The position numbers were made by a program, and so were the translations under genes. From positions 1 to 47,041 of the forward strand of contig CANQXA010000013.1 in the NCBI GenBank assembly GCA_947627765.1: DNA of 47,041 nucleotides. Reading direction: 5' to 3'. The stretch comes from an uncultured Clostridia bacterium (GTDB taxonomy: Bacteria > Bacillota > Clostridia > Christensenellales > Borkfalkiaceae). Under the pieces are notes generated by a model. It searched no databases. It saw nothing but the letters and a program-made list of their open reading frames with translations, and had not been told where the DNA came from. Within the stretch, counting starts at the first letter, position 1. The number at the start of each line of letters is the position of its first letter. This document shows positions 10,667 to 47,041 of the stretch, in pieces.

Positions 10667-11344
10667 ATGAAACTCGTCGTGACCCGTGCGGACGGGTTGG
10701 AGTCAAGCGAGATCGGGCGTCTCATCGAAACCTTCCCCCCCGCGCGCAGGGAACAGATCGTAAGGATCCGCGACGGGCGCCGTCTCGCGGAGAGCGCAGT
10801 GGGGGAGGCGTGCGTCCGCCTCGGGATCGCCGAAAGGTTGGGGCTTGCCCCCGCGGAGATTGCGCTCGCCCGCGGAGAGAGGGGGAAACCCTTTTTGGAA
10901 GGGGATTTCTCTTTGCATTTCAATCTCTCCCATTCGGGTGGGTTGGTCGTCTGCGCGTTCGGCGGGGCTCCCGTCGGCGTAGATGTGGAAGAGGTACGAA
11001 AAATCGAGTTCCGTTCCATCGCCGAACGCTGTTTTACCGACGGCGAACGGGAGGAACTCGGGCGTGCCGACGATCCGCTCCCCGTCTTTTTCCGTCTGTG
11101 GACGGCACGGGAGAGCGGCGCAAAGTTGGGCGGAGGGGGGATCTTCGCCGCTCTGCGCGGCGGGGTGAGCGCGGGCTACGTCCGTTCGTTCGGCGTTACG
11201 CGGGAGGGCGAGCTCGCCGATTGGAGAACGGCCCCCTATGTGCTCTCCGTGTCTTCTCCGTCGCCCGTCGGTTGTACCGCCGAATTCCGCTCTGCGGAAG
11301 AGATCCTGCGCGCATGGACTTCCCTTTGCTCCGCGCGGACTTGA
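10667..11344 (+). CDS. 4'-phosphopantetheinyl transferase, Sfp type
   Basis: Transfers phosphopantetheine from CoA to a carrier-protein serine. 225 aa, the Sfp/AcpT two-domain size. Seen: GKPFLEGDFSLHFNLSHSGG (about residues 64-88), the Mg-binding GVDVEEV near residue 104, and FRLWTARESGAKLGGGG near residue 142, matching the W-x3-E-S/A-x2-K pattern with Ala-Arg in place of the usual Lys. AGGAGG precedes ATG 10667. Its last codons run into the tandem array behind tRNA-Thr: the sequence encoding R-T-stop is the array's GGACTTGA, so the present C-terminus may have been set by the array. Physiological carrier-protein substrate unknown. Confidence 0.85.
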   Translation: MKLVVTRADGLESSEIGRLIETFPPARREQIVRIRDGRRLAESAVGEACVRLGIAERLGLAPAEIALARGERGKPFLEGDFSLHFNLSHSGGLVVCAFGGAPVGVDVEEVRKIEFRSIAERCFTDGEREELGRADDPLPVFFRLWTARESGAKLGGGGIFAALRGGVSAGYVRSFGVTREGELADWRTAPYVLSVSSPSPVGCTAEFRSAEEILRAWTSLCSART

Positions 11345-11707
11345 ACCGGCGACCTATTGTCTTCCCCAAAAAACGATCGGGCGATTTCATGTTGCCGAGC
11401 GGGTCTTAGCGATCGTTTTTCGGGGACCCCATATCTTTAATCAGCAGGTCTTACGGTTCCAAGTCAACCGAGTAATTGCAAAAAATGAGACGAGAAAAAC
11501 CTCGTCTCATTTTTTGGAGCTACTGGCCGGACTTGAACCGGCGACCTATTGTCTTCCCCCAAAAACGATCGGGCGGTTTTATGTTTCCGAACGGATCTTA
11601 GCGATCGTTTTTTCGGGGACCCCATATCTTTAATCAGCAGGTCTTACGGTTCCAAGTCAACCGAGTAATTGCAAAAAATGAGACGAGAAAAACCTCGTCT
11701 CATTTTT
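11337..11707 (-). repeat. Tandem array of 192/193-bp units behind tRNA-Thr, each with a copy of the tRNA 3' end
   Basis: Two near-identical units (11337-11528 and 11529-11721, the second running into the tRNA). Reading in the tRNA sense (minus strand), each unit contains: the terminator (11673-11708, copy 11480-11515); an inverted, diverged copy of the tRNA 3' half (11631-11673, copy 11438-11480); GGGGTCCCCGAAAAA (11608-11623, copy 11416-11430); a hairpin closed by CGATCG...CGATCG and ending TTTTTTGGGG; then a direct tRNA 3' copy. The copy at 11515-11547 repeats 33 bases of the tRNA 3' end including CCA; the outermost, 11337-11355, keeps only 19. No coding capacity. The interiors of the two hairpins differ at several positions, so the duplication is not brand new. 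Confidence 0.9.
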
Positions 11708-11708
11708 T
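11673..11708 (-). terminator. tRNA-Thr terminator (copy at 11480-11515)
   Basis: Symmetrical 15-bp stem AAAAAATGAGACGAG / CTCGTCTCATTTTTT with a 6-base loop. It works in principle on both strands. An identical copy in the second array unit lies at 11480-11515. Confidence 0.9.
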
Positions 11709-11783
11709 GGAGCTACTGGCCGGACTTGAACCGGCGACCTGCTGATTACGAATCAGCTGCTCTACCGACTGAGCCACAGTAGC
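11708..11783 (-). tRNA. tRNA-Thr (anticodon CGU), CCA encoded
   Basis: On the minus strand a complete cloverleaf of 76 nt including CCA: acceptor GCTACTG/CAGTAGC with discriminator U, D-arm with AGTCGGTAGA, anticodon stem GCTGA/TCAGC with loop TTCGTAA (anticodon CGT at 11748-11750, reading ACG), T-arm GCCGG/CCGGC with loop TTCAAGT. It has its own promoter upstream (11818-11846) and a terminator immediately after the CCA. This is the only intact copy; two partial 3' copies lie behind it. Confidence 0.97.
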
Positions 11784-11817
11784 GATGAAATTGCGCGCAT
11801 TTCCCACGCGCTTTTTT

Positions 11818-11846
11818 ATTATATGGGAATCCCGCAAAAAAAGCAA
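11818..11846 (-). promoter_or_regulatory. Promoter of tRNA-Thr
   Basis: Reading the minus strand: TTGCTT (11841-11846), 17-base spacer, TATAAT (11818-11823), about 35 bases before the tRNA 5' end. The remaining gap 11847-12013 holds no gene I can recognise. Confidence 0.85.
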
Positions 11847-12013
11847 GCGATTTTACACGAAAAAACAAATTTTTCTCCCGCGGGGGAAAGACGTGCCCCG
11901 TCGATCCCGTCTTGGGCGGCATGATGGGTCTTCCCGCCGAAGATCTCGGGTCTTGGAAGACGCGGAAATAGACGGCCCGAGCAGACGGTCCATCCCCGCG
12001 GGAGTGGAATTTC

Positions 12014-12982
12014 TCAGAGATATTTTTTGTAGAACGCTTCGATCTTATCGAAGGGGATGACGTCCATCCGGTCGTAGAGGTCGGTGTGAACGGCGCCGGG
12101 GATTAGGAGCAGTTCCTTGTTTTCGCCTTTTAAGCGGGGGAAAAGGTCCTTGGAAAAATACGCGGAGTGCGCTTTTTTCCCGTGGACCAAAAGCACGGCG
12201 CTCTCGATCTCCTCCGCATATTGCAAGATGGGGAAATTGTAAAAGGAGAGCGAGGAAGTCGTGTTCCAACCCAAATTGGAGTTCAGACTTCGGACATGGT
12301 ACCCCCGTTTCGTCTTATAGTAATCATAATAGTCCTTGACGAAGAAGGGCGCGTCCGCGGGAAGGGGATCGACGACCCCGCCCGCGCGGGCATACGATTT
12401 CGCCGCGTAATCCGCCGTCCGCTGTGCGCAGAGCGCCCGCTTTGCCGCAAGACGTTCCTCTTTGCTGTCGGCGGCGTCGAAGTAGCCCTTCGCGGTGACG
12501 CGGCTCATATCGTACATCGTGGAGGCGACGGTCGCCTTGATACGGGTGTCCGCGGCGGCGGCGTTGACCGCCATTCCGCCCCAACCGCAGATGCCGAGGA
12601 TACCGATCCGTTCGGGATCTACTTCGGGCGTGACGGATAAAAGATCCACGCAAGCCGAGAAGTCCTCGGTGTTGATGTCGGGGGAGGCGACGTAGCGGGG
12701 CGTCCCGCCGCTCTCGCCCGTAAAGGAGGGATCGAAGGCGACGGTATAGAAGCCGCGCGCGGCGAGTTCCTGCGCGTACAGCCCCGAAGACTGTTCTTTC
12801 ACCGCGCCGAAGGGACCGCAGACGGCGATCGCAGGGAGTTTTCCGCGGGCGTTTTTGGGGCGGTAGACGTCGGCGGCGAGGGTGATCCCGTAGCGGTTGA
12901 AGAAAGTCGTCTTACTGTGTAAGACGCGCCCGTCCTGCGGGAATACTTTGTCCCATTCTTCTGTCAAATGCAGTTGTTCCAT
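12014..12982 (-). CDS. Alpha/beta hydrolase (dienelactone-hydrolase-like) with Cys nucleophile elbow
   Basis: 322 aa, alpha/beta-hydrolase fold. Seen: an N-terminal strand region NRYGITLAADVYRP, oxyanion-region AVCGPFGAVKEQSSGLYAQ, FDPSFTGESGG, the nucleophile elbow GICGWGG near residue 150 (Cys where most hydrolases have Ser), an inserted helical lid (residues 165-225) and a C-terminal GAVHTDLYDR carrying the likely catalytic His. Proteins of this type are widespread in Firmicutes; natural substrates are not established. AGGAGG precedes ATG 12982. It is the last gene of a five-gene minus-strand operon. It contains one ACCATGTCCG motif (12291). Confidence 0.85.
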   Translation of the reverse strand: MEQLHLTEEWDKVFPQDGRVLHSKTTFFNRYGITLAADVYRPKNARGKLPAIAVCGPFGAVKEQSSGLYAQELAARGFYTVAFDPSFTGESGGTPRYVASPDINTEDFSACVDLLSVTPEVDPERIGILGICGWGGMAVNAAAADTRIKATVASTMYDMSRVTAKGYFDAADSKEERLAAKRALCAQRTADYAAKSYARAGGVVDPLPADAPFFVKDYYDYYKTKRGYHVRSLNSNLGWNTTSSLSFYNFPILQYAEEIESAVLLVHGKKAHSAYFSKDLFPRLKGENKELLLIPGAVHTDLYDRMDVIPFDKIEAFYKKYL

Positions 12983-13008
12983 ACTATCCTCCTATTCCGA
13001 ATCAAAAT

Positions 13009-13605
13009 TTAGAAGTCTTCCCGCCGTTCGGCGAAGTACATCCCGCGCTCGCGGTAGAGCGAGGGAAGGTCGTAGACCGTTTTGCCGCAGATACGATAGG
13101 GTTCCGCCGTCCCGCAGGCGTTCTCCGTGAAGGTATCCCACGCGGTGACGAGGTTCTCCGTGCGCGGGATCTCATGCGCGTTGAGCAGTTCTTGCAGGGA
13201 GAACGGATCTTTGCCGTACAGCGTGACGACGTTGTACTTCCCGCTCATGATCTCGTCGTGGGAGAAGTGCCCGCCGAAGCCGAACGACGAGAGCCCGTCC
13301 GAAGCGAGCAACCCGCCCTCGCTATGTAAGAGCGCGAGCGCATCGGCCTGCCGCAAGCCGTCGATATAATAGACGTCTTTATGAAAGCGTTCCGCCGCAA
13401 TGTCTTCTTCCGTTTCGTCGCGGCGGTTAGAGGGAAGTTCTAAAATAAAGAAGAAGGGCTCGTCGCGGCGGCGGAGAAAACTCTCCATGAGCGGAACGAT
13501 CTTCTTCGTCCCGACATTGGCAACGATGCAATTTTTTTGCGGCTCGTATCCCTCTTTCAGCAGTTCGGGGAAGGGGACCGAGCAGGACGGTTTCAAATCC
13601 AACAA
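13009..13605 (-). CDS. Conserved hypothetical protein in the yhhQ operon
   Basis: 198 aa, soluble, no signal peptide. Not recognised. Visible: an N-terminal LDLKPSCSVPFPELLKEG, a segment NVGTKKIVPLMESFLRRR that looks like a strand-helix unit, a Gly-rich GGLLASDGLSSFGFGGHFSHDEI near residue 105, and a basic C-terminus. The start is TTG 13605 with AAGGA about 9 bases upstream. It lies 22 bases after the DUF3737 gene and 26 bases before the hydrolase gene, so it is co-transcribed with both. Function unknown. Confidence 0.7.
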   Translation of the reverse strand: MLDLKPSCSVPFPELLKEGYEPQKNCIVANVGTKKIVPLMESFLRRRDEPFFFILELPSNRRDETEEDIAAERFHKDVYYIDGLRQADALALLHSEGGLLASDGLSSFGFGGHFSHDEIMSGKYNVVTLYGKDPFSLQELLNAHEIPRTENLVTAWDTFTENACGTAEPYRICGKTVYDLPSLYRERGMYFAERREDF

Positions 13606-13627
13606 AACGTTATCCTTTCCCTGCGGC

Positions 13628-14470
13628 TTACGCCTTTTTGACGATTTGCGCGCGGCAGGGGTATTTGGGATCTTTGAGAATGATCTCGCCGAAATTTTGG
13701 GCGGCGATGCGTCCCGAGAGGGGATTTTTTACCGAGAGGATCCCGCCCTCGATCTCCGCATCCACGTCGCTGTACTCGAAGGCGAGATCGCAGTTCTCCG
13801 TCGTACAACCGATGAGGCGGAGCCGCTTGCAATAGCACAGCGGCTGGGTGCCCTTGATGTGGCAGTTGACGAGCGTGAGCCCGTCCGAATACCAGCCGAG
13901 ATATTCGCCGTCGATCACGCTGTCGCGCACGGTGACGTTCTCGGCGTGCCAGAAGGCGTCCTTGGTGGTAAGGTACGAGTTTGCGATCTCCACGTCCTTC
14001 GTGTATTGGAAGCTGTACTTCCCGTGCAGGGTGAAGTTCTTTGCGCGGATGCCGCGGCTCTCGAAAAAGGCGTATTCGGAGGTGATGTCAACGTTTTCGG
14101 CATCGACCGATCCACACCGCCAGCCGAATTCGGGGGAGACCGCCTTCAAGTTGCGAAGGGTGACCTTTTTACACTCTCTGAGCGCCTTGATCCCGTACAT
14201 GGTACAGCCCTCGACGGTGATGTCCGTCCCGTACCAGATCGCGGCGCGGCATTTCTCCGTCATCTCTCCGCCCTCGATGCGTAGCCTTTCGTTGTGCCAG
14301 AGGGGATAGCGAAGGTCCATATAGCAGTCCTTCACCGTGACGTCGCTGCACTCCTTCAAGAAGGATTCCCCATCCTCCTCGCCCGCAAAACGGCAGGAGA
14401 CGACGTTTACGCCGTGCACGTTGTAGAGCGCGCGCTCTTCGGAAAATGTCTCGTGTTCAATCGTCTTCAT
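13628..14470 (-). CDS. DUF3737 family protein (right-handed beta-helix)
   Basis: About 280 aa made of short strand repeats of the form x-V-x-V-x-x-C/N-x-(F/Y) (VKDCYMDLRYPLWHNERLRIEGG, VTVRDSVIDGEYLGWYSDGL), as in parallel beta-helix proteins. The family has no assigned function; pectate-lyase-like folds often bind or cut polysaccharide, but no secretion signal is visible, so this copy is probably cytoplasmic. MKTIEHETFSEERALYNV at 14470 matches the usual family N-terminus; an in-frame ATG at 14491 is possible but neither start has a strong ribosome site. It sits between the SDR and hypothetical genes of the operon. Confidence 0.82.
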   Translation of the reverse strand: MKTIEHETFSEERALYNVHGVNVVSCRFAGEEDGESFLKECSDVTVKDCYMDLRYPLWHNERLRIEGGEMTEKCRAAIWYGTDITVEGCTMYGIKALRECKKVTLRNLKAVSPEFGWRCGSVDAENVDITSEYAFFESRGIRAKNFTLHGKYSFQYTKDVEIANSYLTTKDAFWHAENVTVRDSVIDGEYLGWYSDGLTLVNCHIKGTQPLCYCKRLRLIGCTTENCDLAFEYSDVDAEIEGGILSVKNPLSGRIAAQNFGEIILKDPKYPCRAQIVKKA

Positions 14471-14495
14471 ATCTCGGTCTTTCGGGGTCATTGGG

Positions 14496-15143
14496 TCACC
14501 AAACGAAGTTGGCGCGGGCGCTCTCGCCGTTGTCCACGAGGACGTCCTGCGCCGTCATGGAGCGGTTGACCGCGGTGAGAAAGTAGGCGAATTCCGCGAT
14601 CTCTTCGGGCTCCGCCCACTTTTTGAGGGGGGTTTCCGCCATGATCTGCGCCCACAGCGCGGGATCTTCCATGACATGGCGGTTGAGCTCCGTCGTCACG
14701 CCGCCGGGCGAGAGGCTGTTCGCCGTGGCGTTGAGCGGCGCGAGGCGCAGGGCGACGTTCTTCATATACGCGACCATGCCCCCCTTGCTTGCGGCGTATT
14801 CGGGAAATTCCGCGCCCGTCGATGCGCTCGCCGAGGCGATAAAGAGCACGCTCTTGATCCCTTCGCGCACGCCGTACTGTTCGGTGACGCGGATGGTCCC
14901 TTTGAGGTTGACGTCGATGTCCCGCCCGCTGTTTTGTACGCCCGCGTTGTTGATCAGGATCTCCACCCCGCCGACGGAGGGAAGGGGGGAGGAGGCGATG
15001 TCGGCAAGATAGTGGCGGTAACGGGGATGGCGGAAGGCCGAAGGAAGCACGTCGATCCCCGCGACGTCGTGTCCGCACGCCGTGAATTTTTTTACGATGG
15101 CGAGCCCGATCCCTTGGCTCGCTCCCGTTACGAGAACGTTCAT
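14496..15143 (-). CDS. Short-chain dehydrogenase/reductase (SDR)
   Basis: NAD(P)-dependent oxidoreductase, 215 aa, classical SDR. Seen: the N-terminal cofactor motif TGASQGIG (residues 6-13), NNAGV, the catalytic Ser region ASASASTG and the Tyr-x3-Lys pair YAASKGG, and a C-terminal LKKWAEPEEIAEFAYFL typical of fabG-like enzymes. The length is slightly short of 240-250 aa. ATG 15143 overlaps the yhhQ stop (ATGA), indicating translational coupling. Substrate unknown; association with the queuosine-precursor transporter is by position only. Confidence 0.88.
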   Translation of the reverse strand: MNVLVTGASQGIGLAIVKKFTACGHDVAGIDVLPSAFRHPRYRHYLADIASSPLPSVGGVEILINNAGVQNSGRDIDVNLKGTIRVTEQYGVREGIKSVLFIASASASTGAEFPEYAASKGGMVAYMKNVALRLAPLNATANSLSPGGVTTELNRHVMEDPALWAQIMAETPLKKWAEPEEIAEFAYFLTAVNRSMTAQDVLVDNGESARANFVW

Positions 15144-15892
15144 GACGATTTGCTCCGTTGTACGGCTTCGAGATAGGCGCTCCCCACGCCCCGCCGCTTC
15201 CACCGGGCGAGGACGCGGTATCCGATGGGAGAGAAGAGCGCTTCGACCAAGAGTTCCGCGATCATGCCCGTCGCGGCGCAGGTGAGGCACTGGACGACCG
15301 TCCACCCGAAGAAGAAATGGCTGACGAGAAAGGCGAAGATGAGATTATCGACAAATTGCCCGATCGCCGTAGAGATATAGGTGCGGCAGGCATAGGCGGC
15401 AAAGCCGTCGGGCTTTTTGCGGAAGAGCTTCCCGACTCCCCAATTCGAGAAATTGTTGACCGCCGCCGAGACGACGAACGCCGTCGTACTGCCGATGAGC
15501 ACATACCATGTCCCGCCGAAGGTGGAATCGAGCGCGTCGTTGACGACTTGCGCCATGCCGAAATCGAAGAACGCCCCCCATGTCCCCGGGATGAGGCTCG
15601 CGAGGAACAGGATCAGACAGAAGAAGAGATCGAGCAGGATCGCAAACCATGAGAGCAGGGTCGCCGCCTTCGGACCGTAATACTTGGTCAGCACGTCCAT
15701 ACAGAGGAAGGAGACCCAAGAGACGATGATCCCGCAGTCGAGGGCGAGCCAATCCAAATTGAGGTCGATGCTCTTGTTCGCGAGCAAGTTCATCGCGAAG
15801 ACGGAGAGGAGAAAGAGGGAAAACGTGATCGGGGGGACGGACCCCAAGAGAAGGCGCAAATCCGAAAAAAACGCGCCGATCTTCTGCTTCAT
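15140..15892 (-). CDS. yhhQ: Queuosine precursor transporter, YhhQ/VUT family
   Basis: Imports queuine or preQ0/preQ1-type precursors for tRNA queuosine. 250 aa, about six hydrophobic helices. Family marks: DVLTKYYGPKAATLLSW near residue 65 (usual form NLLTExYGKKxA) and the CRTYISTAIGQFVDNLIFAF segment near residue 168, where Arg, Gln and Asp are conserved. AAGGAGG lies 6 bases before ATG 15892 and is part of a structured leader (see the regulatory entry). First gene of the operon yhhQ-SDR-DUF3737-unknown-hydrolase. The substrate is inferred from family and leader, not shown. Confidence 0.88.
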   Translation of the reverse strand: MKQKIGAFFSDLRLLLGSVPPITFSLFLLSVFAMNLLANKSIDLNLDWLALDCGIIVSWVSFLCMDVLTKYYGPKAATLLSWFAILLDLFFCLILFLASLIPGTWGAFFDFGMAQVVNDALDSTFGGTWYVLIGSTTAFVVSAAVNNFSNWGVGKLFRKKPDGFAAYACRTYISTAIGQFVDNLIFAFLVSHFFFGWTVVQCLTCAATGMIAELLVEALFSPIGYRVLARWKRRGVGSAYLEAVQRSKSS

Positions 15893-15898
15893 ACGAAG

Positions 15899-15985
15899 CC
15901 TCCTTGTTTTTTATCGCACATTGCGTGCAGTTCCGCATTGCGGAAGCGCGGCTCGGATGGTTGTGCAAGGAACATCCCGCCGCAA
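15899..15985 (-). promoter_or_regulatory. Structured leader before yhhQ, possible preQ1-type riboswitch
   Basis: On the minus strand the untranslated leader ends in ATAAAAAACAAGGAGG, very like the A-rich tail plus Shine-Dalgarno of class I preQ1 riboswitches. Upstream, GGATG-TTCCTTGCACAAC-CATCC resembles a preQ1-I P1 stem with its UUC...GCAC loop, enclosed by GCGGC/GCCGC. Unlike known preQ1-I aptamers, about 38 bases with two extra hairpins separate this stem from the A-rich tail; CGCGC/GTGCG could instead close directly onto the tail. Regulation would be by hiding the ribosome site. Class assignment is uncertain. Confidence 0.45.
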
Positions 15986-15991
15986 CATGGT

Positions 15992-16020
15992 ATTATACTC
16001 TTTTCTTCCCGCCTTGTAAA
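15992..16020 (-). promoter_or_regulatory. Promoter of the yhhQ operon
   Basis: Minus strand: TTTACA (16015-16020), 17-base spacer, TATAAT (15992-15997). It diverges from the mutT promoter only about 20 bases away. Confidence 0.88.
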
Positions 16021-16039
16021 GCATTTTTTGTTTACAGAG

Positions 16040-16068
16040 TTGACCTTCTGCCCCACAGAAGTTATAAT
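16040..16068 (+). promoter_or_regulatory. Promoter of the mutT-like gene
   Basis: TTGACC, 17-base spacer, TATAAT, then AAAGGAGA before ATG 16087. Confidence 0.88.
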
Positions 16069-16086
16069 AGAGAAAGGAGAATCGTC

Positions 16087-16476
16087 ATGACAGCATTTAC
16101 GGACGTCGTCGCCGCGCTCATCGTGCGGGGGGACAAATTTCTGATCTGCAAGAGACCCGCCCACAAGGCGCGGGGCGGGCTCTGGGAATTCGCCGGCGGC
16201 AAGACCGAGCCCGGCGAGACCAAAGAGGAGGCGCTCGTGCGGGAGTGCCGCGAGGAGCTCGGCGTCTTTCTCACGGTCGGAGAAGTCTTTGCCGAGGTCG
16301 AGCACGTCTATCCCGACCTCAAAGTGCGGCTGACCGTCTTTCGGGCGGAGACGGCGGACGAACCCAAGCGGATCGAGCACGAAGAGCTCCGCTTCATCAC
16401 GCCCGCGGAGATCCCGCTCTACGAATTCTGCCCCGCCGACCGTCCCATCCTCGAAAAATTGCAAAGGGAGCTGTAG
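16087..16476 (+). CDS. Nudix hydrolase, MutT/8-oxo-dGTP diphosphatase-like
   Basis: 129 aa, the size of MutT. The Nudix box is complete at residues 37-60: GGKTEPGETKEEALVRECREELGV fits G-x5-E-x7-R-E-U-x-E-E-x-G-U. The N-terminal VVAALIVRGDKFLICKRP and GLWEFAGGK are typical of MutT enzymes that hydrolyse 8-oxo-dGTP and prevent A-to-C errors, but CTP- or other NTP-specific paralogues look alike. It has its own promoter and terminator, so it is monocistronic. An in-frame upstream GTG is rejected because ATG 16087 has an ideal AAAGGAGA. Confidence 0.85.
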   Translation: MTAFTDVVAALIVRGDKFLICKRPAHKARGGLWEFAGGKTEPGETKEEALVRECREELGVFLTVGEVFAEVEHVYPDLKVRLTVFRAETADEPKRIEHEELRFITPAEIPLYEFCPADRPILEKLQREL

Positions 16477-16490
16477 ATCCGCTCCCTTTT
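16466..16490 (+). terminator. Terminator overlapping the mutT stop
   Basis: GGGAGC / GCTCCC stem with a 9-base loop followed by TTTT. The left arm includes the last codons of the mutT-like gene. It lies between convergent mutT and rqcH. Confidence 0.75.
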
Positions 16491-16491
16491 C

Positions 16492-30762: not shown

Positions 30763-30868
30763 GGGAAGGAAGAGTAGCCAAGGCGCGTAAAGTGTTGCGA
30801 AACGGGACGTTGTTCGCAAACGAAAGGGCGGGGAGATCCCTTTGAGGGAGATTGCCCCAAGCTCTGCG
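30763..30868 (+). promoter_or_regulatory. Tetrahydrofolate (THF) riboswitch, class I
   Basis: Conserved class I THF aptamer blocks occur in order: GGAAGAGTAG, GGCGCGTAAAGTG, AACGGGACGTTG, AACGAAAGG and the closing GATTGCCCC...AAGCTCT. They match the known folT-leader aptamer (GAGUAG, GCGUUAAGUG, GGGAUGUCG, AACGAAG). It precedes a folate-type ECF S-component gene, the usual target. The aptamer is separated from the gene by about 170 bases that end in a hairpin (31038-31062) whose right arm AGGAGGT is the ribosome site. Confidence 0.9.
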
Positions 30869-31037
30869 GTGCCGCGGCGCGTCCGCTCTCGTCGTCACTC
30901 GCCGCCTTTTTACGCTTTTCTTGCGAAAAGCTCTGTTTGGCGGCGGTGCCTCCTTTCGCAAAAAATCTTTCCACGAAATCTTTTTTGCGATAAAAGAGGT
31001 GGGGCAAATGCCCCCGCATTCAGACGGCGAAATCACG

Positions 31038-39750: not shown

Positions 39751-39778
39751 ATTGAAACCTCGCTTGATTCTCCCGATC

Positions 39779-39807
39779 ATTATACATCATCCCGCCGGGA
39801 TTCGCAA
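39779..39807 (-). promoter_or_regulatory. Promoter of gpmI
   Basis: Minus strand TTGCGA (39802-39807), 17-base spacer, TATAAT (39779-39784). Confidence 0.85.
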
Positions 39808-39838
39808 GCGGTGAGAGGACGTTTCGGAAAATTTTTCG

Positions 39839-39881
39839 GCGCCCCGCCGTCCGTCCCCCGAAGAGACGGACGGCGGGGCGC
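39839..39881. other. Large orphan hairpin between divergent gpmI and the lipoprotein gene
   Basis: Perfect 17-bp stem GCGCCCCGCCGTCCGTC / GACGGACGGCGGGGCGC around a 9-base loop. There is no T-run on the plus strand, and on the minus strand it is followed by CGAAAAATTTT. It lies upstream of both genes, so there is no transcript here that obviously needs terminating. Confidence 0.7.
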
Positions 39882-39944
39882 TCCCGCTTCCCCGAAAATA
39901 AAGGATCTTCGCATAAGCCGCGCTACGGCGGGCAAACTGAGAAT

Positions 39945-40346: not shown

Positions 40347-40423
40347 GGGGGAAGCCGTCTTCCGCAAAGCGCTTTCAGGCTCCCTTGTCCCGCCTTGTCC
40401 CGCATAGAACATACAAAAACCGT

Positions 40424-40460
40424 ACAAAAAAACCGCGCCCGCCGTTTGAGCGGGCGCGGT
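40424..40460 (-). terminator. Terminator of pepV
   Basis: Minus strand CCGCGCCCGC / GCGGGCGCGG stem then TTTTTTTG. It lies 14 bases past the pepV stop and may also stop the lipoprotein transcript coming from the other side. Confidence 0.88.
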
Positions 40461-40473
40461 CCGTATGCGTTTT

Positions 40474-41745
40474 TTATGCGGTGAGGCGTTCGATCGCTTT
40501 CTTGTAGAGGTTGAGAAGGAGCTCGACGCGCTCGATGGAGATGTGCTCGTTGGCGCGGTGGACGAGGGATTCGTCGCCGGGGAATTCGGGCCCGAACCCG
40601 ACGCCGTATTTGAGGGCGCGGGCATAGGTGCCGCCGCCGATGGCGATGGGCTCCGCATGGGTCCCCGTGCACTCCTCATAGACGGAGAGGAGGGTGGTGA
40701 TCAGCTCGCTGTCCTTGGGCGCCATGAGGGGCGCCTGATGGTGGACCGTCTCATACAGAACGCCGAACTTTTTCAGCACGCTGTGGATCTCCTGTACGGG
40801 CACGGTGGCGGGATAGCGGATGTCGCAGGTGATTTGAAGGTCGCTCTTGCGGTACTTTACGATGTTGGGGGAGATGGTCAGATCGCCCGTTTCGTCCTTA
40901 AACTTTTTAAGCCCGTAGATGTCGTCGAAGAGGCAGGCGATGGCGTGGCGGACGGCTTCGCTCTTGTCCTCGAAGAAGCGGAGGATGGGCAGCATGGCGT
41001 TCTCGCCCTTTTCGGGGGTGGAGCCGTGCGCGCTCTTTCCGTAGGAGAGGATCTTCTTACCCGCGATCTCCAGCCCGAGCGCTCTCGCCTTGGTGACGGT
41101 GAGGGTGCGGGGGGTCGCCTCGCAGAAATCGCAGACCATATTGGCGCTCGAACCGCCTTCGAGGAAGAGGAAGGGCGCCTTGTTGAGACGGAAGTGGAAG
41201 CGGACCTGCAAGATCCCCTTCTCCGCGTAGATGACGGGGAAATCGGCGTCGGGCGAGAAACCCGTTTCGGGCAGGTCGGCGACCTCGTTGTAGTGGTCGA
41301 TGCAAGCCCAGCCGCTCTCTTCGTTACAGCCGACGATGAGCTTGATCTTTTTGGAGGGGACGAACCCTTCGTCTTTCAGCGCCTTCATGGCGTAGAGACA
41401 ACAAATGGCGGGACCTTTATCGTCCACGGCGCCGCGCCCCCAGATTTTGTTGTCCTCGATGGCGCCGCCGAAGGGATCCTTCGTCCAACCGCTCCCGGCG
41501 GGGACGACGTCGAGATGGCAGAGGATCGCAAAGTCCTCGGGACCGGTACCGTACTCCACATCGCCGATGAAACCGTCGTAGTTGTGGGTGACGAATCCCA
41601 TGCTCTCCGCGAGGGAGAGGAAGTGCATGAGACAATCGAGCGCGCCCTGCCCGAAGGGGGCGGTATGCGTGTGCTTTTGGCGCGACGAGTCGAAGCGGAT
41701 GCTTTCGGAAATGCTGTTGACAGTCGATGCAAGGTAGTCTTTCAT
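40474..41745 (-). CDS. pepV: Dipeptidase PepV (M20 family metallopeptidase)
   Basis: Zn-dependent dipeptidase/aminoacylase of broad specificity. 423 aa. Metal-site and catalytic blocks: AILCHLDVVPAGSGW (about residue 76), IWGRGAVDDKGPAICCLYAMKAL (bridging Asp), LIVGCNEESGWACIDHY (catalytic Glu-Glu), PDADFPVIYAEKGI, the lid-domain His in YGKSAHGSTPEKGENA and a C-terminal FPGDESLVHRANEHIS. ATG 41745 has TTGGAGTG upstream; the earlier in-frame ATG 41784 is rejected. Promoter TTGACA-17-TAGAAT at 41831-41859. Confidence 0.93.
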   Translation of the reverse strand: MKDYLASTVNSISESIRFDSSRQKHTHTAPFGQGALDCLMHFLSLAESMGFVTHNYDGFIGDVEYGTGPEDFAILCHLDVVPAGSGWTKDPFGGAIEDNKIWGRGAVDDKGPAICCLYAMKALKDEGFVPSKKIKLIVGCNEESGWACIDHYNEVADLPETGFSPDADFPVIYAEKGILQVRFHFRLNKAPFLFLEGGSSANMVCDFCEATPRTLTVTKARALGLEIAGKKILSYGKSAHGSTPEKGENAMLPILRFFEDKSEAVRHAIACLFDDIYGLKKFKDETGDLTISPNIVKYRKSDLQITCDIRYPATVPVQEIHSVLKKFGVLYETVHHQAPLMAPKDSELITTLLSVYEECTGTHAEPIAIGGGTYARALKYGVGFGPEFPGDESLVHRANEHISIERVELLLNLYKKAIERLTA

Positions 41746-41830
41746 GGTAGTACACTCCAAAGGGTCATTGCCGGGGTCCGGCATAGAGCCGCAAAATCGG
41801 GGATAGTTGGGAATCCTCGGCTACGCTAAC

Positions 41831-41859
41831 ATTCTAACAGAGAATTTTTATTCTGTCAA
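41831..41859 (-). promoter_or_regulatory. Promoter of pepV
   Basis: Minus strand TTGACA (41854-41859), 17-base spacer, TAGAAT (41831-41836). Confidence 0.9.
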
Positions 41860-41966
41860 GTGTTCTTATTAAAAAGGAAAAAAAGGAAAAATATTATCAA
41901 ACCTTGGTCGATTTTCGTGCAAAATTACGAAAAATATGCTACAATAAGTGCAAAGAGGACGAAAAA

Positions 41967-42683
41967 ATGCACGAAGGTCACAGAAAACGGATCTTGGAGC
42001 GTCTCAAAGACGGCGCCGCAGGAATGCAGGATCACGAGCTTTTGGAGATCCTGCTCTTCAATGTGATCCCGCGCTGTAACACAAATCCGCTCGCGCACAG
42101 TCTTCTTTCGGCGTTCGGCAGTCTCTCGGGCGTGCTGAATGCGAGTTACAGCCAGCTCTGCGGCGTAGAGGGCGTCGGAAGTTCGACCGCGGCGTACCTC
42201 AAAGCCGTTTCGGAGACGTTTGAGCGCGTCCGTCTTGCGGAGAACCGGCCCCGCCGCTTCGAAAACGCCTCCTCGTTCGCCCGCTATCTGCTCGGGCGGC
42301 TTGCGGGGATCGTCGAGGAGCGCATTTTCCTCTTCTGCGTGGGGGAGGACGGCGCCGTCGCCTCCGAGCGGCAGTATACCGCCTTCCGCAGGGATTCCTC
42401 CTACCTCGATTCGGACGAGGTCACCCGCTTTCTCCTCTCACAGCGTCCGAAGGGGCTCGTCGTCGCGCACAACCATCCCGGCGCGCCTTGTCATCCCTCG
42501 AATGAAGACAATAAATTCACCGCGCAGTTGCAAATGATCTGTTCGGCGGTAGGGGTGGAGTTTTACGACCATATCGTGATCGGGGACGACGGGTACTTCA
42601 GCTATTTCGCCGAGGGACAGCTCCAAGAGATCAAGAACGAATACAACATCGACCACATCATCGGGGGGATCGGCAAATCTTGA
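41967..42683 (+). CDS. radC: RadC-family JAMM/MPN+ protein
   Basis: RadC/YkfG-type protein; despite the name its role is unsettled, with the JAMM domain predicted to be a metalloprotease or nuclease. 238 aa. N-terminal helix-hairpin-helix region (QLCGVEGVGSSTAAYL, about 70-85) and C-terminal JAMM motif HNHPGAPCHPSNED at about residues 168-181 with both His, Ser and Asp present. ATG 41967 preceded by AGAGGA; TACAAT at 41940-41945 is a likely -10. It is followed with a four-base overlap by a sensor kinase, an unusual neighbour for radC. Confidence 0.93.
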   Translation: MHEGHRKRILERLKDGAAGMQDHELLEILLFNVIPRCNTNPLAHSLLSAFGSLSGVLNASYSQLCGVEGVGSSTAAYLKAVSETFERVRLAENRPRRFENASSFARYLLGRLAGIVEERIFLFCVGEDGAVASERQYTAFRRDSSYLDSDEVTRFLLSQRPKGLVVAHNHPGAPCHPSNEDNKFTAQLQMICSAVGVEFYDHIVIGDDGYFSYFAEGQLQEIKNEYNIDHIIGGIGKS

Positions 42684-43909
42684 AAAAATTCACGATACGC
42701 AATCTATCCACGGAGCTCTTGCGCTATCACCGCCTCATCATCTTCGTGCTCCTCATCTTCATGGAATTCGTCTTTGTGGCGAATAATTGGGGGAGCGCTT
42801 ACTATGCGGGGATCCCCGCATGGTACGTCATTCTGCCCGTATGCATCTTCTTCACGGCGGAGAACGCGGTCAAGCTGTGGGCGCTCAAAAAGTTCTCGGA
42901 GAAGATCGCATTCTATGTGATCGACGTCTTGTGCCTGCTCGTTCTGACCATGTTTTCGGACGGCTCCCTCATCTCGACGCTGTACATCATCATTCTCACG
43001 GAGTTCTATTTCAGCCAGCCGAAACTTGCGGCGAGCATCGCGATGTGGAGCGCGTCCATGGTGCTCTTCCTCGTCACCTTCGCCCTCACGAATACGTTGA
43101 AGGGGATCGGGTTCAACGTCATATCGCTGGTCTCCGCCATGCTGAACGACCTGCTCCTGATCGCCCTCCACTTCTTCATCTTCAACTTTGCCCTCCGCCT
43201 CAGCGCCAAGAACCGCGAGATCGCCAAGACGCTCGAAGAACTCAACGAGAGCAACGAAAAACTCCGCATCGCCTACCGCGAGTTGCAGGAGATCACCGTG
43301 CTCGAAGAGCGCCAGCGCATCGCGAAGGACATTCACGACACCGCGGGGCATTCCATCACCACCGTTATCATGCAGACGGAGGCGGCGCGGCTGGTCATCG
43401 ACAGCGACCCCGAGGACGCAAAGCGCAAGATCTCGGCTGCCAACCTTCAGGCGAAGCACGCCCTCGAAGAGCTCAGGGAGAGCGTGCACCTGCTCTCGGG
43501 CACGAGAGGGGAACAGACCCTCCGCGACCTGCTCCTCGAGATCGTCCACGACTCTACCGACGGCACGGGCATCGCCGTCCGCACGGAGATCGACGACGTC
43601 CGCCTGTGCGACGCCAAGCGCCGTCTCATCCTCAACACCCTCAAAGAGGGGATCTCCAACGGGCTCCGCCACGGCAACGCGACGGCGTTCTGGTTTGAAC
43701 TCAAAGAGGAGGACGGGCACGTCAATTTCCTGCTCTCCGACAACGGGACGGGCATGGAGATCGGCCGTCTCAAAGAGGGGTTCGGGCTCACGGGGATGCA
43801 CAGGCGCGCGGAATCCCTCGGGGGAGACGTTTGGTTCGAAACGGAGCCCGGCGAGGGCTTTGAGATCCATATGACACTGCCGCTCGACGGCAGACAGGAG
43901 GCTTTATGA
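42680..43909 (+). CDS. Sensor histidine kinase, NarL/HisKA_3 type
   Basis: 409 aa. About six N-terminal membrane helices (residues 18-175) with very short loops, so the stimulus is probably sensed in or near the membrane; a coiled-coil (RLSAKNREIAKTLEELNESNEKLR), the HisKA_3 phospho-acceptor His at about residue 219 (ERQRIAKDIHDTAGHSITT), and a HATPase domain with LRHGNATAFWF and SDNGTGMEIGRLKEGFGLTGM. The start is TTG 42680 overlapping the radC stop; the GGGGGGAT stretch lies about 10 bases upstream. Partner regulator follows with a four-base overlap. Resembles DesK/LiaS-type kinases; signal unknown. Confidence 0.9.
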   Translation: MKKFTIRNLSTELLRYHRLIIFVLLIFMEFVFVANNWGSAYYAGIPAWYVILPVCIFFTAENAVKLWALKKFSEKIAFYVIDVLCLLVLTMFSDGSLISTLYIIILTEFYFSQPKLAASIAMWSASMVLFLVTFALTNTLKGIGFNVISLVSAMLNDLLLIALHFFIFNFALRLSAKNREIAKTLEELNESNEKLRIAYRELQEITVLEERQRIAKDIHDTAGHSITTVIMQTEAARLVIDSDPEDAKRKISAANLQAKHALEELRESVHLLSGTRGEQTLRDLLLEIVHDSTDGTGIAVRTEIDDVRLCDAKRRLILNTLKEGISNGLRHGNATAFWFELKEEDGHVNFLLSDNGTGMEIGRLKEGFGLTGMHRRAESLGGDVWFETEPGEGFEIHMTLPLDGRQEAL

Positions 43910-44550
43910 TCAAGGTTTTGATTGCAGACGACCAGGCGATCCTTGCGGACGGGATCCGCAGTGTGCTCTCTTCCTGCCCCGACCTCGAGGTGGTCGGGAT
44001 CGCGCAGGACGGGTTTTCCGCGCTCGAAGCGACGGAGAAGCTCGCCCCCGACGTCGTCCTGATGGACATCCGTATGCCCAATATGAACGGCGTGATCGCC
44101 ACGCAGGAGATCAAGCGGCGCCGTCCCGAGACCAAGGTGCTCATCCTCACGACGTTCGACGACAGCGATTACATCCTCAACGCCATCAATTACGGCGCGA
44201 GCGGGTATCTTTTGAAGGACGTCTCCGCCTCCATGCTCATCGACGCGATCAAAAACGCCTACGCGGGGGATACCATTCTCCCCGCGAAGATCGCCCGCAG
44301 GATCGCAGACGCGGCGAAGATGGTCAGTTCCGACCGCGAGATCAAGCTCAAACGGCGGTTTGCCCTCTCCGACCGTGAAGTGGAGATCGCGCTGATGATC
44401 TACGAGGGATTCACGAACAAACAGATCGCCTCCGCGCTCAAACTCTCGGACGGCACGGCGCGCAATTACAGCTCGACGATCTACGAAAAGATCGGCGCCA
44501 AGAGCAGGTTAGACGCCATGGAGAAGATGCGGCAAGCGATCCTCGAATAA
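43906..44550 (+). CDS. Response regulator, NarL/LuxR type
   Basis: 214 aa. Receiver domain with acidic pair DD at residues 8-9, phospho-acceptor Asp54 (VVLMDIRMP), Thr in LILTTFDDSDY and Lys in GYLLKDVSA; C-terminal LuxR helix-turn-helix (LSDREVEIALMIYEGFTNKQIASALKLSDGTARNYSSTIYEKIGAKSR). Overlaps the kinase gene by ATGA; the operon ends in a strong terminator. Target genes are not evident; no transporter or stress gene is attached. Confidence 0.95.
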   Translation: MIKVLIADDQAILADGIRSVLSSCPDLEVVGIAQDGFSALEATEKLAPDVVLMDIRMPNMNGVIATQEIKRRRPETKVLILTTFDDSDYILNAINYGASGYLLKDVSASMLIDAIKNAYAGDTILPAKIARRIADAAKMVSSDREIKLKRRFALSDREVEIALMIYEGFTNKQIASALKLSDGTARNYSSTIYEKIGAKSRLDAMEKMRQAILE

Positions 44551-44562
44551 AAAACGGCGAAA

Positions 44563-44593
44563 AAAGAGGTCTCCCGCGGGAGACCTCTTTTGG
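44563..44593. terminator. Terminator of radC-kinase-regulator operon
   Basis: Perfect palindrome AAAAGAGGTCTCCCG / CGGGAGACCTCTTTT, bidirectional in form. Confidence 0.92.
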
Positions 44594-44645
44594 TATTCTC
44601 TCATTTTTGAACGCCGCTCTTCGGGCATGGGTGCCCCGTTTGCGC

Positions 44646-44810
44646 TCATCCGTCGATTTTCGGTGTGACATTATGCTTGGACTTTAAGACTTTCGGAAGG
44701 ACGGGCGCGGCTACGCCGAAGAGCAGGAATGCGGCAGGCGCCGCCAAGAGCGCGGCCGCCGCGGTCCATTGCAGATACTTTGCACAGGTCTGTGCACGTT
44801 GCTTCGTCAG
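44646..44810 (-). CDS. Possible small membrane-protein reading frame downstream of pyk (doubtful)
   Basis: Immediately after the pyk stop on the same strand an open frame runs to TGA at 44646. It encodes a basic segment (LTKQRAQTCAKYLQW), a hydrophobic helix (TAAAALLAAPAAFLLFGVAAPVL) and a basic tail. It looks like a small single-pass protein, but there is no ATG, GTG or TTG at a sensible place (CTG 44810 is the first candidate) and no Shine-Dalgarno. It may be a decayed gene or chance. On the plus strand CGGACGGGGTCCG plus T6 (44811-44829) looks like a second terminator with no gene in front of it. The rest of 44594-44836 holds nothing I recognise. Confidence 0.22.
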   Translation of the reverse strand: MTKQRAQTCAKYLQWTAAAALLAAPAAFLLFGVAAPVLPKVLKSKHNVTPKIDG

Positions 44811-44836
44811 CGGACGGGGTCCGTTTTTTATGGACG

Positions 44837-46249
44837 TTACACCGTTTCCAAATTGATGAGGGAGGAGTTTCCGCTCTTGCCGTTGGGCGTGCCGCCCGTA
44901 ATGACGATGACGTCTCCCTTGCGGACGAGCCCGCTCTCCACGGCGGCGCGCTTTGCAAAGTGGAAGAGGACGTCTACCGAGAAGTACTCCTCGCTCCGCA
45001 CGGGGAGGACGCCCCACGAAAGGGCGAGTTTGCGGTAACTCTTTTCGTCGGTGGTCATGCCGATGATGTCGATGTTGGGACGGAAGCGGGAGACCATCTT
45101 CGCCGTGCCGCCCGTTCTCGTGCAGACGACGATCGCCTTCGCGTGGACGTCGTGCGCCAAGAGGCAGGCGGAATGGGAGAGGGCGTCGGAGAGCCCGCGG
45201 ATGAGGTACTCTTTGTCCTCCACATATTGGATGTATTCCGTCTTGGTCTCCGCTTGTTCGGCGATGCGCGCCATGGCGGCGACCGCCTGTACGGGGTATT
45301 CGCCCGCGGCAGTCTCGCCCGAAAGCATGATGGCGGAGGAACCGTCGTAGACGGCGTTTGCGACGTCCGAGATCTCGGCACGGGTGGGACGGGGCTGGTG
45401 GATCATACTCTCGAGCATCTCCGTCGCCGTGATACAGCGCTTGCCCGCTTTGCGGCAGGCGGTGATGATGTGCTTCTGGATATCGGGGAGCTCCTCGTAG
45501 GGGATCTCCACGCCCATGTCGCCGCGGCCGATCATGATGCCGTCCGAGACGTTCAGGATCTCGTCGAGATTGTTCACGCCCGCGCGGTTTTCGATCTTGG
45601 CGATGAGGTCGATGTCGGTCGATCCGTGTTCGCGGAGGAAGGTCCTGACGTCGAGAATGTCCTGCGCCTTGGAGACGAAAGAGCAGGCGACGAAATCCAC
45701 CCCGTGTTCGATGCCGAAGAGCAGGTCGGACTTATCCTGCTCGGAGAGATAGACGAGGTCGAGCTGTTTTTCGGGGAAGAACATACTCTTGCGGTTGGAG
45801 AGTTCCCCGCCGATGACGACTTTGCAGAGGACTTCGGGCGCCTTCACTTCGGTGACTTCGAAGACCATCAGCCCGTTGTTGAGGAGGATCCTGTCGCCGG
45901 GATTCATTTCGGCGCAGATATTCTTGTAGGAGACGGAGACTTTGGTCTCGTCGCCCTCGATCTCCTCGGTCGTGAAGGCGAAGGGATCTCCCTCTTTCAA
46001 GAAGACCTTGCCGTCTTTGAACGTCTTGATACGGAATTCGGGACCCTTCGTGTCGAGCAGAATGGGAAGCGGAATGTTCTTCTCCTGCCGCACTTTCTTG
46101 ATGACAGCGATCTTCTTCGCGTGATCCTCATGGGTGCCGTGCGAGAAATTGATCCGCGCCACGTTCATGCCCGCGTCCGCCATTGCGGAGATGATCTCTT
46201 CCGTCTCGGAAGCGGGGCCGAGCGTACATACGATCTTTGTCTTTTTCAT
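44837..46249 (-). CDS. pyk: Pyruvate kinase
   Basis: Final glycolytic step, PEP plus ADP to pyruvate plus ATP. 470 aa. Seen: MKKTKIVCTLGPAS start, NVARINFSHGTHEDH, ILLDTKGPEFR, the catalytic Lys region LIAKIENRAGVNNLDEIL, metal-binding GIMIGRGDMGVEIP, ITATEMLESMIHQPRPTRAEISDVANAV, SGETAAGEYPV, and a C-terminal domain with the allosteric-type VCTRTGGTAKMVSRFRP and ending TGGTPNGKSGNSSLINLETV. It lacks the extra PEP-utiliser C-terminal domain of B. subtilis Pyk. Promoter TTGTTT-16-TAAAAT at 46282-46309, overlapping the region upstream of rnpB. Confidence 0.97.
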   Translation of the reverse strand: MKKTKIVCTLGPASETEEIISAMADAGMNVARINFSHGTHEDHAKKIAVIKKVRQEKNIPLPILLDTKGPEFRIKTFKDGKVFLKEGDPFAFTTEEIEGDETKVSVSYKNICAEMNPGDRILLNNGLMVFEVTEVKAPEVLCKVVIGGELSNRKSMFFPEKQLDLVYLSEQDKSDLLFGIEHGVDFVACSFVSKAQDILDVRTFLREHGSTDIDLIAKIENRAGVNNLDEILNVSDGIMIGRGDMGVEIPYEELPDIQKHIITACRKAGKRCITATEMLESMIHQPRPTRAEISDVANAVYDGSSAIMLSGETAAGEYPVQAVAAMARIAEQAETKTEYIQYVEDKEYLIRGLSDALSHSACLLAHDVHAKAIVVCTRTGGTAKMVSRFRPNIDIIGMTTDEKSYRKLALSWGVLPVRSEEYFSVDVLFHFAKRAAVESGLVRKGDVIVITGGTPNGKSGNSSLINLETV

Positions 46250-46281
46250 AATTCCCCCCTATGAAAAAAATGTACGGTAAT

Positions 46282-46336
46282 ATTTTATCATAAATCCCCG
46301 AAAAAACAAGTACTTTTCGGAAATTTGTGCTATAAT
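46282..46336. promoter_or_regulatory. Back-to-back promoters of pyk (minus) and rnpB (plus)
   Basis: Minus: TTGTTT (46304-46309), 16-base spacer, TAAAAT (46282-46287). Plus: extended -10 TGCTATAAT with TATAAT at 46331-46336 and a poor -35 region overlapping the pyk -35, so the two may compete. Confidence 0.75.
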
Positions 46337-46343
46337 AATTGCG

Positions 46344-46740
46344 ATCCGAGCGGACTGCGCGGTCGCGGCGCGCAAGTGCGCGATGAGGAAAGTCCGGGCA
46401 TCGCAGGGCAGGACGCCTGATAACGTCAGGTGGGGGTGACCCTAAGGAAAGTGCAACAGAAATAGACCGCCCCGCATCTTCTTTTCAGGGAAGGGGAAGC
46501 GATCGAACGGAAGTGAGATCGGCTTCGGCGGGGCAAGGGTGGAAAGGCGAGGTAAGAGCTCACCGACGGGACGGTAACGCCCCGTGCCATGTAAACCCCG
46601 TCCGATGCAAGTTTGGGACTTTTTCACATAGGGTTGCCCGCCCGAAAAAGTCCGTGAACAACGCTGGAGCCTATCGGCGACGGTAGGCGTAGATAAATGA
46701 CCGCGCTCGACAGAACCCGGCTTACAGGTCCGGCTCGGAT
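46344..46740 (+). ncRNA. rnpB: RNase P RNA (bacterial type A)
   Basis: Catalytic RNA that matures tRNA 5' ends. Conserved blocks in order: P1 strand CCGAGCGGAC (46346-46355), GAGGAAAGTCCGGGC (46385-46399), CAACAGAAATA, GGTAAGAGCTCACCG, the GCCCGTGCCATGTAAACC region, AGATAAATGACCGC and ACAGAACCCGGCTTAC, closing with P1 strand GTCCGGCTCGG (46728-46738). Complementarity of the two P1 strands fixes both ends. Type A layout is inferred from size (about 395 nt) and blocks; a terminator follows immediately. Confidence 0.97.
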
Positions 46741-47041
46741 CCCAAGCCCGCCCCGCATTTTTGCGGGGCGGGCTTGGGTTTTGAAAAGCGGGTTCTGTCG
46801 AGCAAAAGGGGGTCCCCGAAAAAAGGCGGAGCATTTTTTTGGGGAGAGGAGGGACAACGGAGCAAAAGTTCCCTTTCCGCGGAGCGGGAAGGGAGGGAAA
46901 GCGCAGTTTGTCCCGACGAAGAACCCGGCTTACAGGTCCGGCTCGGATCCCAAGCCCGCCCCGCATTTTTGCGGGGCGGGCTTGGGTTTTGAAAGGGGGT
47001 TCTGTCGAGCAAAAGGGGGTCCCCGAAAAAAGGCGGAGCAT
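46712..47041 (+). repeat. Tandem array (period 208 bp) behind rnpB, with copies of the rnpB 3' end
   Basis: Starting at AGAACCC inside rnpB (46712) the sequence repeats at 46920 with a 208-base period and runs off the window end. Each unit: rnpB 3' end, terminator, inverted rnpB piece GGGTTCTGTCGAGC (46790-46803; complementary to 46705-46718), GGGGTCCCCGAAAAAA (46809-46824, again 47017-47032), GGCGGAGCA, TTTTTTTGGGG, then about 80 bases with a CCCTTTCCGC/GCGGGAAGGG hairpin before the next direct rnpB 3' copy. No coding capacity. Same plan as the array behind tRNA-Thr. Confidence 0.9.
46741..46782 (+). terminator. rnpB terminator (copy at 46949-46990)
   Basis: Perfect 16-bp stem CCCAAGCCCGCCCCGC / GCGGGGCGGGCTTGGG, loop ATTTTT, then TTTT. 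Repeated identically in the next array unit. Confidence 0.95.

Follow-up and report, generated by a model that had tools for sequence, protein, structure and literature searches.

The stretch of DNA analysed here, called the window throughout, is the complete 47,041-nucleotide (nt) contig C13 of an uncultured Clostridia bacterium whose genome assembly (G000) comprises 1.46 Mb. It holds two tandem repeat arrays, one behind tRNA-Thr and one behind rnpB, and our favoured reading, to which we give about an even chance, is that both are tandem units of a single non-autonomous integrative element carrying a guide that matches its target. The family that these units represent consists of tiny, probably mobile, DNA elements without protein genes. 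What argues for this reading, all of it drawn from sequence comparison, is compensatory change in two stems (P2 and P3), the occurrence of the family throughout the genus, counts at insertion junctions, the presence of two guides for two junctions in rnpB, guides that follow tRNA-Thr variants, empty sites and conserved targets.

An earlier note on this DNA had described one order of parts at both loci, and that order is present behind tRNA-Thr and behind rnpB alike. At a target with the junction X/Y, a unit consists of the sequence from Y to the gene end, a terminator or spacer, an inverted copy Y'X' lying across the junction sequence, hairpin P2, AGGAG, hairpin P3 and the right end CGACGA, after which Y follows again (Table 1). 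The Thr units are identical to each other over 132 nt and the rnpB units agree at 98% over 80 nt. The Thr inverted copy, TAATCAGCAGGTC, matches its target in 13 of 13 positions, and that of rnpB unit 1 is exact over 15 nt, from −7 to +8 relative to the junction. The 16-mer that the note had taken to be identical at the two loci is complete in three of the four units; Thr unit 2 carries 15 of its letters, TTTTTGGGGG in Thr unit 1 being replaced by TTTTTTGGGG in Thr unit 2. A search of the G000 assembly for the 15-mer GGGGTCCCCGAAAAA gave four matches, every one within the two arrays (reversed control, 0). Both RNA folding of the rnpB region (46698-46960, z −6.9) and single-stranded DNA folding (46783-46935, z −5.2) gave better structures than shuffled sequences.

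Table 1. Positions of the array parts and of a further scaffold copy in the window
Feature	Position	Strand	Remark
tRNA-Thr(CGT), intact target	11708..11783	-	ARAGORN
tRNA-Thr junction X/Y	between 11741 and 11740	-	after tRNA nt 43, 3' end of anticodon stem
Thr unit 1, 193 nt: tRNA 3' part, terminator, inverted copy, hairpin, right end	11548..11740	-	direct copies
Inverted copy (guide-like), Thr unit 1	11631..11643	-	complementary to 11736-11748 across junction, 13/13
Hairpin P2, short form, Thr unit 1 (GGGGTCCCCGAAAAA...TTTTTGGGG)	11557..11623	-	
Thr unit 2, 192 nt	11356..11547	-	direct copies
Inverted copy, Thr unit 2	11438..11450	-	13/13
Hairpin P2, Thr unit 2	11364..11430	-	
Third and last, partial direct copy of tRNA-Thr 3' part	11337..11355	-	
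rnpB	46347..46741	+	Rfam RF00010, 280 bits
rnpB junction X/Y	between 46711 and 46712	+	
rnpB unit 1, 208 nt	46712..46919	+	
Terminator hairpin, rnpB unit 1	46741..46778	+	perfect 17-nt arms
Inverted copy (guide-like), rnpB unit 1	46782..46803	+	complementary to 46705-46726 across junction; 22 nt at 86%
Hairpin P2, rnpB unit 1 (GGGGTCCCCGAAAAAA-GGCGGAGCA-TTTTTTTGGGG)	46809..46844	+	compensatory changes
AGAGGAG, hairpin P3, exact right end CGACGA	46845..46919	+	model R1 95.6 bits over 46811-46919
rnpB unit 2, cut by contig end	46920..47041	+	
Weaker long-scaffold copy adjoining tetrahydrofolate (THF) riboswitch, opposite strand	30889..30992	-	R1 26.3 bits, E 1.3e-5

Since the window is a whole contig, rnpB unit 2 is incomplete, and the contig ends inside a repeat as when an assembler is stopped by one. 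Among 51 retrieved tRNA-Thr stretches, 14 run into the end of their contig no more than 200 nt from where the tRNA starts, which fits arrays that break assemblies. The unit counts given here derive from the assembly, and true copy numbers would need long reads. That the arrays are assembly artefacts, a concern of the earlier note, was considered and is unlikely, since the same plan recurs at the same and at other genes in many separately assembled genomes.

The scaffold comes in two forms. In the long form, found in the rnpB units, P2 has a variable stem and often a C-GNA-G loop, followed by A(G/A)AGGAG, P3 and CGACGA. The short form of the Thr units has the same GGGGTCCCC start and a longer P2, is without AGGAG-P3, and has its right end about 6-9 nt past GGGG. 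An alignment of 26 copies (MAFFT) was the basis of a covariance model of the long form, R1, and the structure was drawn on this same alignment, so some lean in its statistics is expected. Paired cells amounted to 95.2% as against 83.8% in shuffles, and double-change cells to 51 as against 13.8 in shuffles and 7-21 in slid versions. Double changes affected nine pairs (shuffles 6.3; 12 of 500 shuffles as high), and in P3 they were present at five of seven pairs. Compensatory change thereby lends strong support to both stems as predicted.

R1 matched 97 of the 103 genomes of the genus (E ≤ 0.001), with up to at least 36 matches per genome and 12 in G000, in agreement with the earlier suggestion that one family occupies both loci; copy number varied among genomes, as had also been anticipated, and G103, G114, G116 and G059 have no copy. 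Across the phylum R1 was found in 7 of 398 sampled genomes, G000 included (E ≤ 1e-6), a lower bound because filters were stricter and nine candidates were scored per genome. When 101 genomes taken as relatives were searched for the 15-mer, 18 of them contained it, again including G000, and three of its matches (L008, L019, L029) appeared by eye to be chance matches in coding sequence. A hairpin with limited loop length was found at 39 places in 24 of the 103 genus genomes, mostly behind tRNA-Thr, with others behind rnpB, beside antisense tRNA-Leu and at further sites. When one genome per species was scanned for the hairpin, at least 120 stretches were obtained. Among the matches listed were many Clostridia and also Bacteroidales, Nitrospirae, Desulfarculus, Gracilibacteria, Lentisphaeria, Alphaproteobacteria, Dehalococcoidales and Pullulanibacillus pueri; most of these are metagenome-assembled genomes (MAGs), P. 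pueri being cultured. Many of these hairpins are simple and show no visible target copy, and some in unrelated genomes show the full plan. In other lineages the same plan was seen at rpsI, rpsU and several tRNAs; an automatic repeat finder that contributed here was run without a control and serves for examples only. A plasmid collection gave no match to the element, phage records gave three and one weak partial matches without annotation, and the short-hairpin pattern was met in three stretches of viral contigs. The simple hairpin recurs at four loci of the Bacillales species P. pueri (L063, L083, L124, L130), which may offer an entry point for laboratory work.

The relation between element and target was examined in 63 distinct copies with enough flanking sequence, taken from 67 R1 matches in the best-scoring loci and 20 chosen regions. 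A direct copy was scored when the sequence after CGACGA recurred upstream with at least 19 of 22 matches, and a spanning inverted copy when it was exact over at least 7 nt. The direct copy was present in 38 of the 63 copies (reversed control 0/63) and started at the first base after CGACGA (+0) in 36 of these 38. An inverted copy spanned the junction in 25 of the 38, as against 3 of 120 shifted control windows. Broken down by site, this was the case in 7/7 copies at the rnpB junction AGAACCC, 2/2 at rnpB GGCCGCG/GACCGCG, 10/11 at antisense tRNA-Leu GCGTCTG, 3/5 at rlmN GGCGG and 2/2 at tRNA-Pro GGTCGCG. The two rnpB junctions are accompanied by two different inverted copies (L252, L253 and L260 versus L013 and others). 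Furthermore, tRNA-Thr guides matched the anticodon-stem variant of their own genome in 18 of 18 distinct sequences (GC 11, AC 4, AT 3), after 12 occurrences too short to judge had been dropped. The tRNA-Leu guides are complementary mainly to X, often from −13 to +2, and the inverted copy must for this reason be more than a stem formed with the right-hand copy. At the level of sequence, the structure, the exact right end, the direct copy and an inverted copy that tracks the target across the junction are demonstrated.

Targeting of RNA 3' ends, as the earlier note had proposed, is borne out by copies at RNA genes and is too narrow a description. Elements are also found in antisense to tRNA-Leu and tRNA-Arg, in which case it is the 5' part of the tRNA that is duplicated, at the 3' ends of rlmN, rpsI, rpsU and groEL, inside rnpB, and in gaps between phage structural genes. 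In G000 the exact 15-mer does not occur outside the arrays, but the wider scaffold is present at other than RNA genes too; a spread of the 16-mer away from such genes was what the note had named as speaking against its proposal. At least seven junction sequences are unrelated to each other (AGAACCC, GCGTCTG, GGCGGCG, GGGACCA, GGTCGCG, AGGAGGG, GACCGCG). The extent of the direct copy varies: it includes the terminator in G009 (69 nt) and G131 (79 nt), ends within 1 nt of the gene end at tRNA-Leu (L312, 26 nt), tRNA-Arg (L319, 36 nt) and tRNA-Pro (L346, 43 nt), and stops after 55 nt at rnpB of G107. The two terminators of G107 are unlike each other, and the right one resembles the terminator of G101, a genome that shows no element there. 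These variable ends and the G107 and G101 terminators suggest that a unit restores the end of the gene and may come with a terminator of its own. Where the element is antisense, its spacer would stand at the expected place of the tRNA promoter. The direct copies can be read either as a long target duplication made at insertion or as a captured gene end carried by the unit. By eye, antisense-tRNA and rlmN copies have no terminator between direct copy and hairpin, and an enzyme that recognises terminator hairpins, one of two mechanisms suggested before, is therefore not favoured. The other, site-specific integration with the RNA 3' end as identity block, fits best in so far as a gene end serves as identity block; a fixed-site integrase does not explain it, because each target comes with a different inverted copy and specificity shifts accordingly.

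Empty sites, predicted by the same note, exist in relatives: G019 and G046 have tRNA-Thr, the terminator and the same downstream gene as the filled G029 and G127, without units. Other arrangements were observed at this tRNA. Its 5' halves, up to the anticodon loop, stand in tandem 167-176 nt apart at L224, L231, L240 and L248, two of which lie beside an integrase-like reading frame (by eye); judged by eye, these halves mark tRNA-Thr as an attachment site of the conventional kind as well. An antisense long-form element ends with CGACGA exactly at the tRNA-Thr 3' end (..CGACGA/TGGAGCTACTGG) in L040 (G129), and by eye also in G025, G138, G140, G043 and G024; such elements stand behind sense arrays or in their place.

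In the guided-element reading, the inverted copy would pair with the target, either as RNA or as folded single-stranded DNA, and this pairing would position a break at X/Y. An enzyme acting in trans would then join the scaffold end to Y, and the gene end with its terminator or promoter would be restored, so that essential genes would not be broken. Arrays would grow by ordinary recombination between the direct copies. An RNA form and a single-stranded DNA form would look alike in the present data. With a genus-wide population, two junctions in one gene and inverted copies matched to the species, the idea that targets are chosen by pairing is open to direct test.

Several observations weigh against this reading. 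The tested copies are many copies of few sites and are related to each other. The upstream direct copy was missing in 25 of the 63, some of which lie inside rnpB or between genes, and the spanning inverted copy was missing in 13 of the 38 copies with a direct copy; it was rare at tRNA-Pro GGGACC/AGGGACC (1/5) and absent at antisense tRNA-Arg (0/4), groEL (0/1) and one further site (0/1). No recognisable guide was found at 31 tRNA-Thr places, many of them without any array. Further pair types in the 26-copy alignment, 22 as against 23.0 in shuffles, showed no excess. Nor is an intact gene at the left universal: in G002, G044 and G134 the first piece of the array is a 3' fragment of the tRNA that begins at the anticodon loop, and ARAGORN found no intact tRNA in L336 of G000. 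In the former three genomes the exact tRNA 5' sequence is located elsewhere, which points to a second, larger insertion of the conventional kind at tRNA-Thr. Guide action is itself a proposal, and the acting enzyme, presumed to work in trans, was not named by any of the searches.

These searches covered the scaffold, its surroundings and candidate families. In 92 of 101 scaffold starts a GACG(A/C) lies nearby, and in the DNA examined the other nine have no later one followed by a target copy, so that no open reading frame inside the scaffold was found. Among 120 loci no protein common to the hairpin surroundings emerged, the 30 largest clusters, inspected by eye, containing no common transposase, recombinase or reverse transcriptase. 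The DEDD recombinase of IS110 exceeded the cut-off in 1 of 30 genomes, not G000 (5/30 at E ≤ 0.001), and a TnpB-type nuclease in none of 30 (1/30 at E ≤ 0.001). A resident Y1/RAYT protein, reverse transcriptase, IS110 or TnpB was rejected or became less likely as the enzyme. As MAGs are incomplete, a single absence is weak evidence, and a lack across many genomes is stronger.

In phages the long-form pattern occurs in 44 stretches of viral contigs, six of which look by eye like chance matches in coding sequence (L388, L399, L409, L410, L418, L422). Among the 38 entries examined, with L409 still included, the best upstream match to a target reached 13/18, so no target copy is present. Copies with recognisable neighbours lie between phage genes, including structural genes of Firmicutes phages; in one contig (L383, IMGVR_UViG_2563367172) three long-form scaffolds occupy three gaps between structural genes, following the major capsid, connector and tail genes. 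An open reading frame of at least 60 amino acids follows in 30 entries, representing 18 unrelated groups, and the layout is AGGAGG, P3, GACGACGA, with a start codon at +0 or +1 after GACGACGA in 10 of the 18 groups. Folding of P3 is predicted to place AGGAGG about 8-9 nt from the start codon. In T4 genes 38 and 25, a hairpin between the Shine-Dalgarno sequence and the start codon shortens their spacing (PMC3014915). With these precedents, the phage spacing suggests by analogy that the scaffold may be built to be harmless between genes.

The phage layout, together with the spacing by structure described for the T4 genes, is what speaks for regarding the scaffold as a conserved RNA element of operons or transcripts, a translation or processing signal copied with its neighbours by ordinary recombination and not itself mobile. 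We hold this to be improbable, since it leaves unexplained the exact direct copies of tRNA, rnpB and coding sequence ends and the site-specific inverted copies. Miniature islands moved by conventional tyrosine integrases at attachment sites in tRNAs or gene 3' ends would account for the restoration of gene ends by direct copies, and larger insertions, beside an integrase-like frame by eye, also break tRNA-Thr at the anticodon loop in the genus; yet the unrelated junction sequences, with no common attachment core seen, make this the most remote of the explanations weighed.

An HUH/Y1 or folded-attachment-site element acting as single-stranded DNA, in which the hairpins bind protein, the inverted copy pairs with a cleavage site on the same strand and a circle carries the gene end, would agree with the stable single-stranded DNA fold of the rnpB region and with the C-GNA-G loops of many P2 hairpins. 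Such loops are very stable in DNA. This explanation, which we consider unlikely, is kept because 13 of 28 hairpin-bearing genomes, traced from loci that other tools had found, have a Y1-family protein. A related hairpin lies within about 1 kb of 2 of 33 Y1 loci (L281, L298). The other 31 loci lack one, however, and Y1_Tnp is absent from G000 and is found in 25 of the 103 genus genomes, overlapping the hairpin genomes in 6 of 24 cases where 5.8 are expected. Somewhat less credible still is unguided target-primed reverse transcription of the non-long-terminal-repeat (non-LTR) kind, with the inverted copy as a snap-back by-product. The exact right end at +0 and the variable extent of the direct copies are what it predicts, but the inverted copy follows species variants of the target, and RVT_1 was not found in G000 and was present in 4 of 16 element-rich versus 5 of 14 element-poor genomes. 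A reverse transcriptase may be supplied by phage.

Several known systems resemble the element in part. The bridge RNA of IS110 has its guide split into a left and a right part that pair with both strands, and it depends on the IS110 recombinase (PMC11208160). As in IS110/IS1111, described there as re-targetable, a non-coding part of the element would recognise the insertion site through base pairing; here there is one continuous inverted copy of one strand and long direct target copies, and the recombinase exceeds the cut-off in 1 of 30 genomes. Repetitive extragenic palindromic (REP) sequences and other partners of Y1 enzymes (IS200/IS605, RAYT) are generally known as short dispersed hairpins moved in trans, the cleavage site being read by the sequence at the hairpin foot, whereas our element has no correlation with Y1, a long direct target copy and a guide of up to 16 nt. 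Palindromic elements of Rickettsia and Wolbachia are likewise known as small structured repeats that also lie inside genes and structured RNAs; the exact right end, the direct gene-end copy and the site-matched inverted copy set the present family apart. Non-LTR retrotransposons of the R2 type share an exact 3' junction in an RNA gene and have non-autonomous forms, but R2 is eukaryotic, with one target gene and a reverse transcriptase (PMC3414825), while here targets are many and usually no reverse transcriptase is resident. The exact 3' junction and variable target duplication of retroelements, whether group II introns or non-LTR-like, are seen here as well. The hairpin of T4 genes 38 and 25 is not a dispersed element, and only the phage form has its layout (PMC3014915). 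An attachment core common to all insertions, as in a tyrosine-integrase island, was not seen.

Rfam 15 matched only host RNAs at the gathering score, and in E-value mode only matches far below gathering were obtained (best mir-627, E 1.5e-5, 32 of 86 bits). The DUF2800 RNA motif was considered because one scaffold copy lies before what we take to be a DUF2800-type phage gene, and was dropped as Rfam gave no match. No description of such an element was found in the open-licence literature, searched mostly with terms that were broad or brought few papers. An unnamed model of this RNA may exist among the supplementary motifs of a human-microbiome survey of structured RNAs (PMC8040213). Judged by these comparisons, the element appears to work like a guided integrative element and belongs to no family among those tested.

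If the guided-element reading is right, bacteria host protein-less integrating elements that spell out their choice of site in a copy complementary to the target, and these are distinct from IS110, CRISPR-transposon and group II intron systems. It would also help to account for contigs that break at the ends of tRNA-Thr and rnpB in these genomes, and it suggests a way of inserting beside essential genes without breaking them. One may speculate further, quite tentatively and as something possible rather than probable, that this is a natural insertion system that can be re-targeted. Its scaffold, about 110 nt of RNA or single-stranded DNA, would carry a 5' guide across X/Y and a 3' Y that could pair with the freed strand end, and would insert itself and a rebuilt gene end into essential genes, the guide being renewed at each site and the enzyme supplied in trans, perhaps from phages with the same scaffold. 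The arrangement of guide, scaffold and primer site in a prime-editing RNA may be likened to such a scaffold with its 3' Y.

Two further places in the window bear traces of the scaffold. A THF riboswitch (30768-30890, plus strand) is adjoined by the weaker copy of Table 1, located in the leader before the next gene, and no direct copy was recognised there by eye. Within rnpB, positions 46497-46552, presumably the P12 region, resemble the 3' part of a scaffold copy inside rnpB of L347; the alignment score was 63, whereas none of 300 shuffles exceeded 24. Some 21 letters of this alignment are ordinary rnpB flank, and R1 does not report the segment. From this likeness, a decayed scaffold copy may form part of the RNase P RNA itself.

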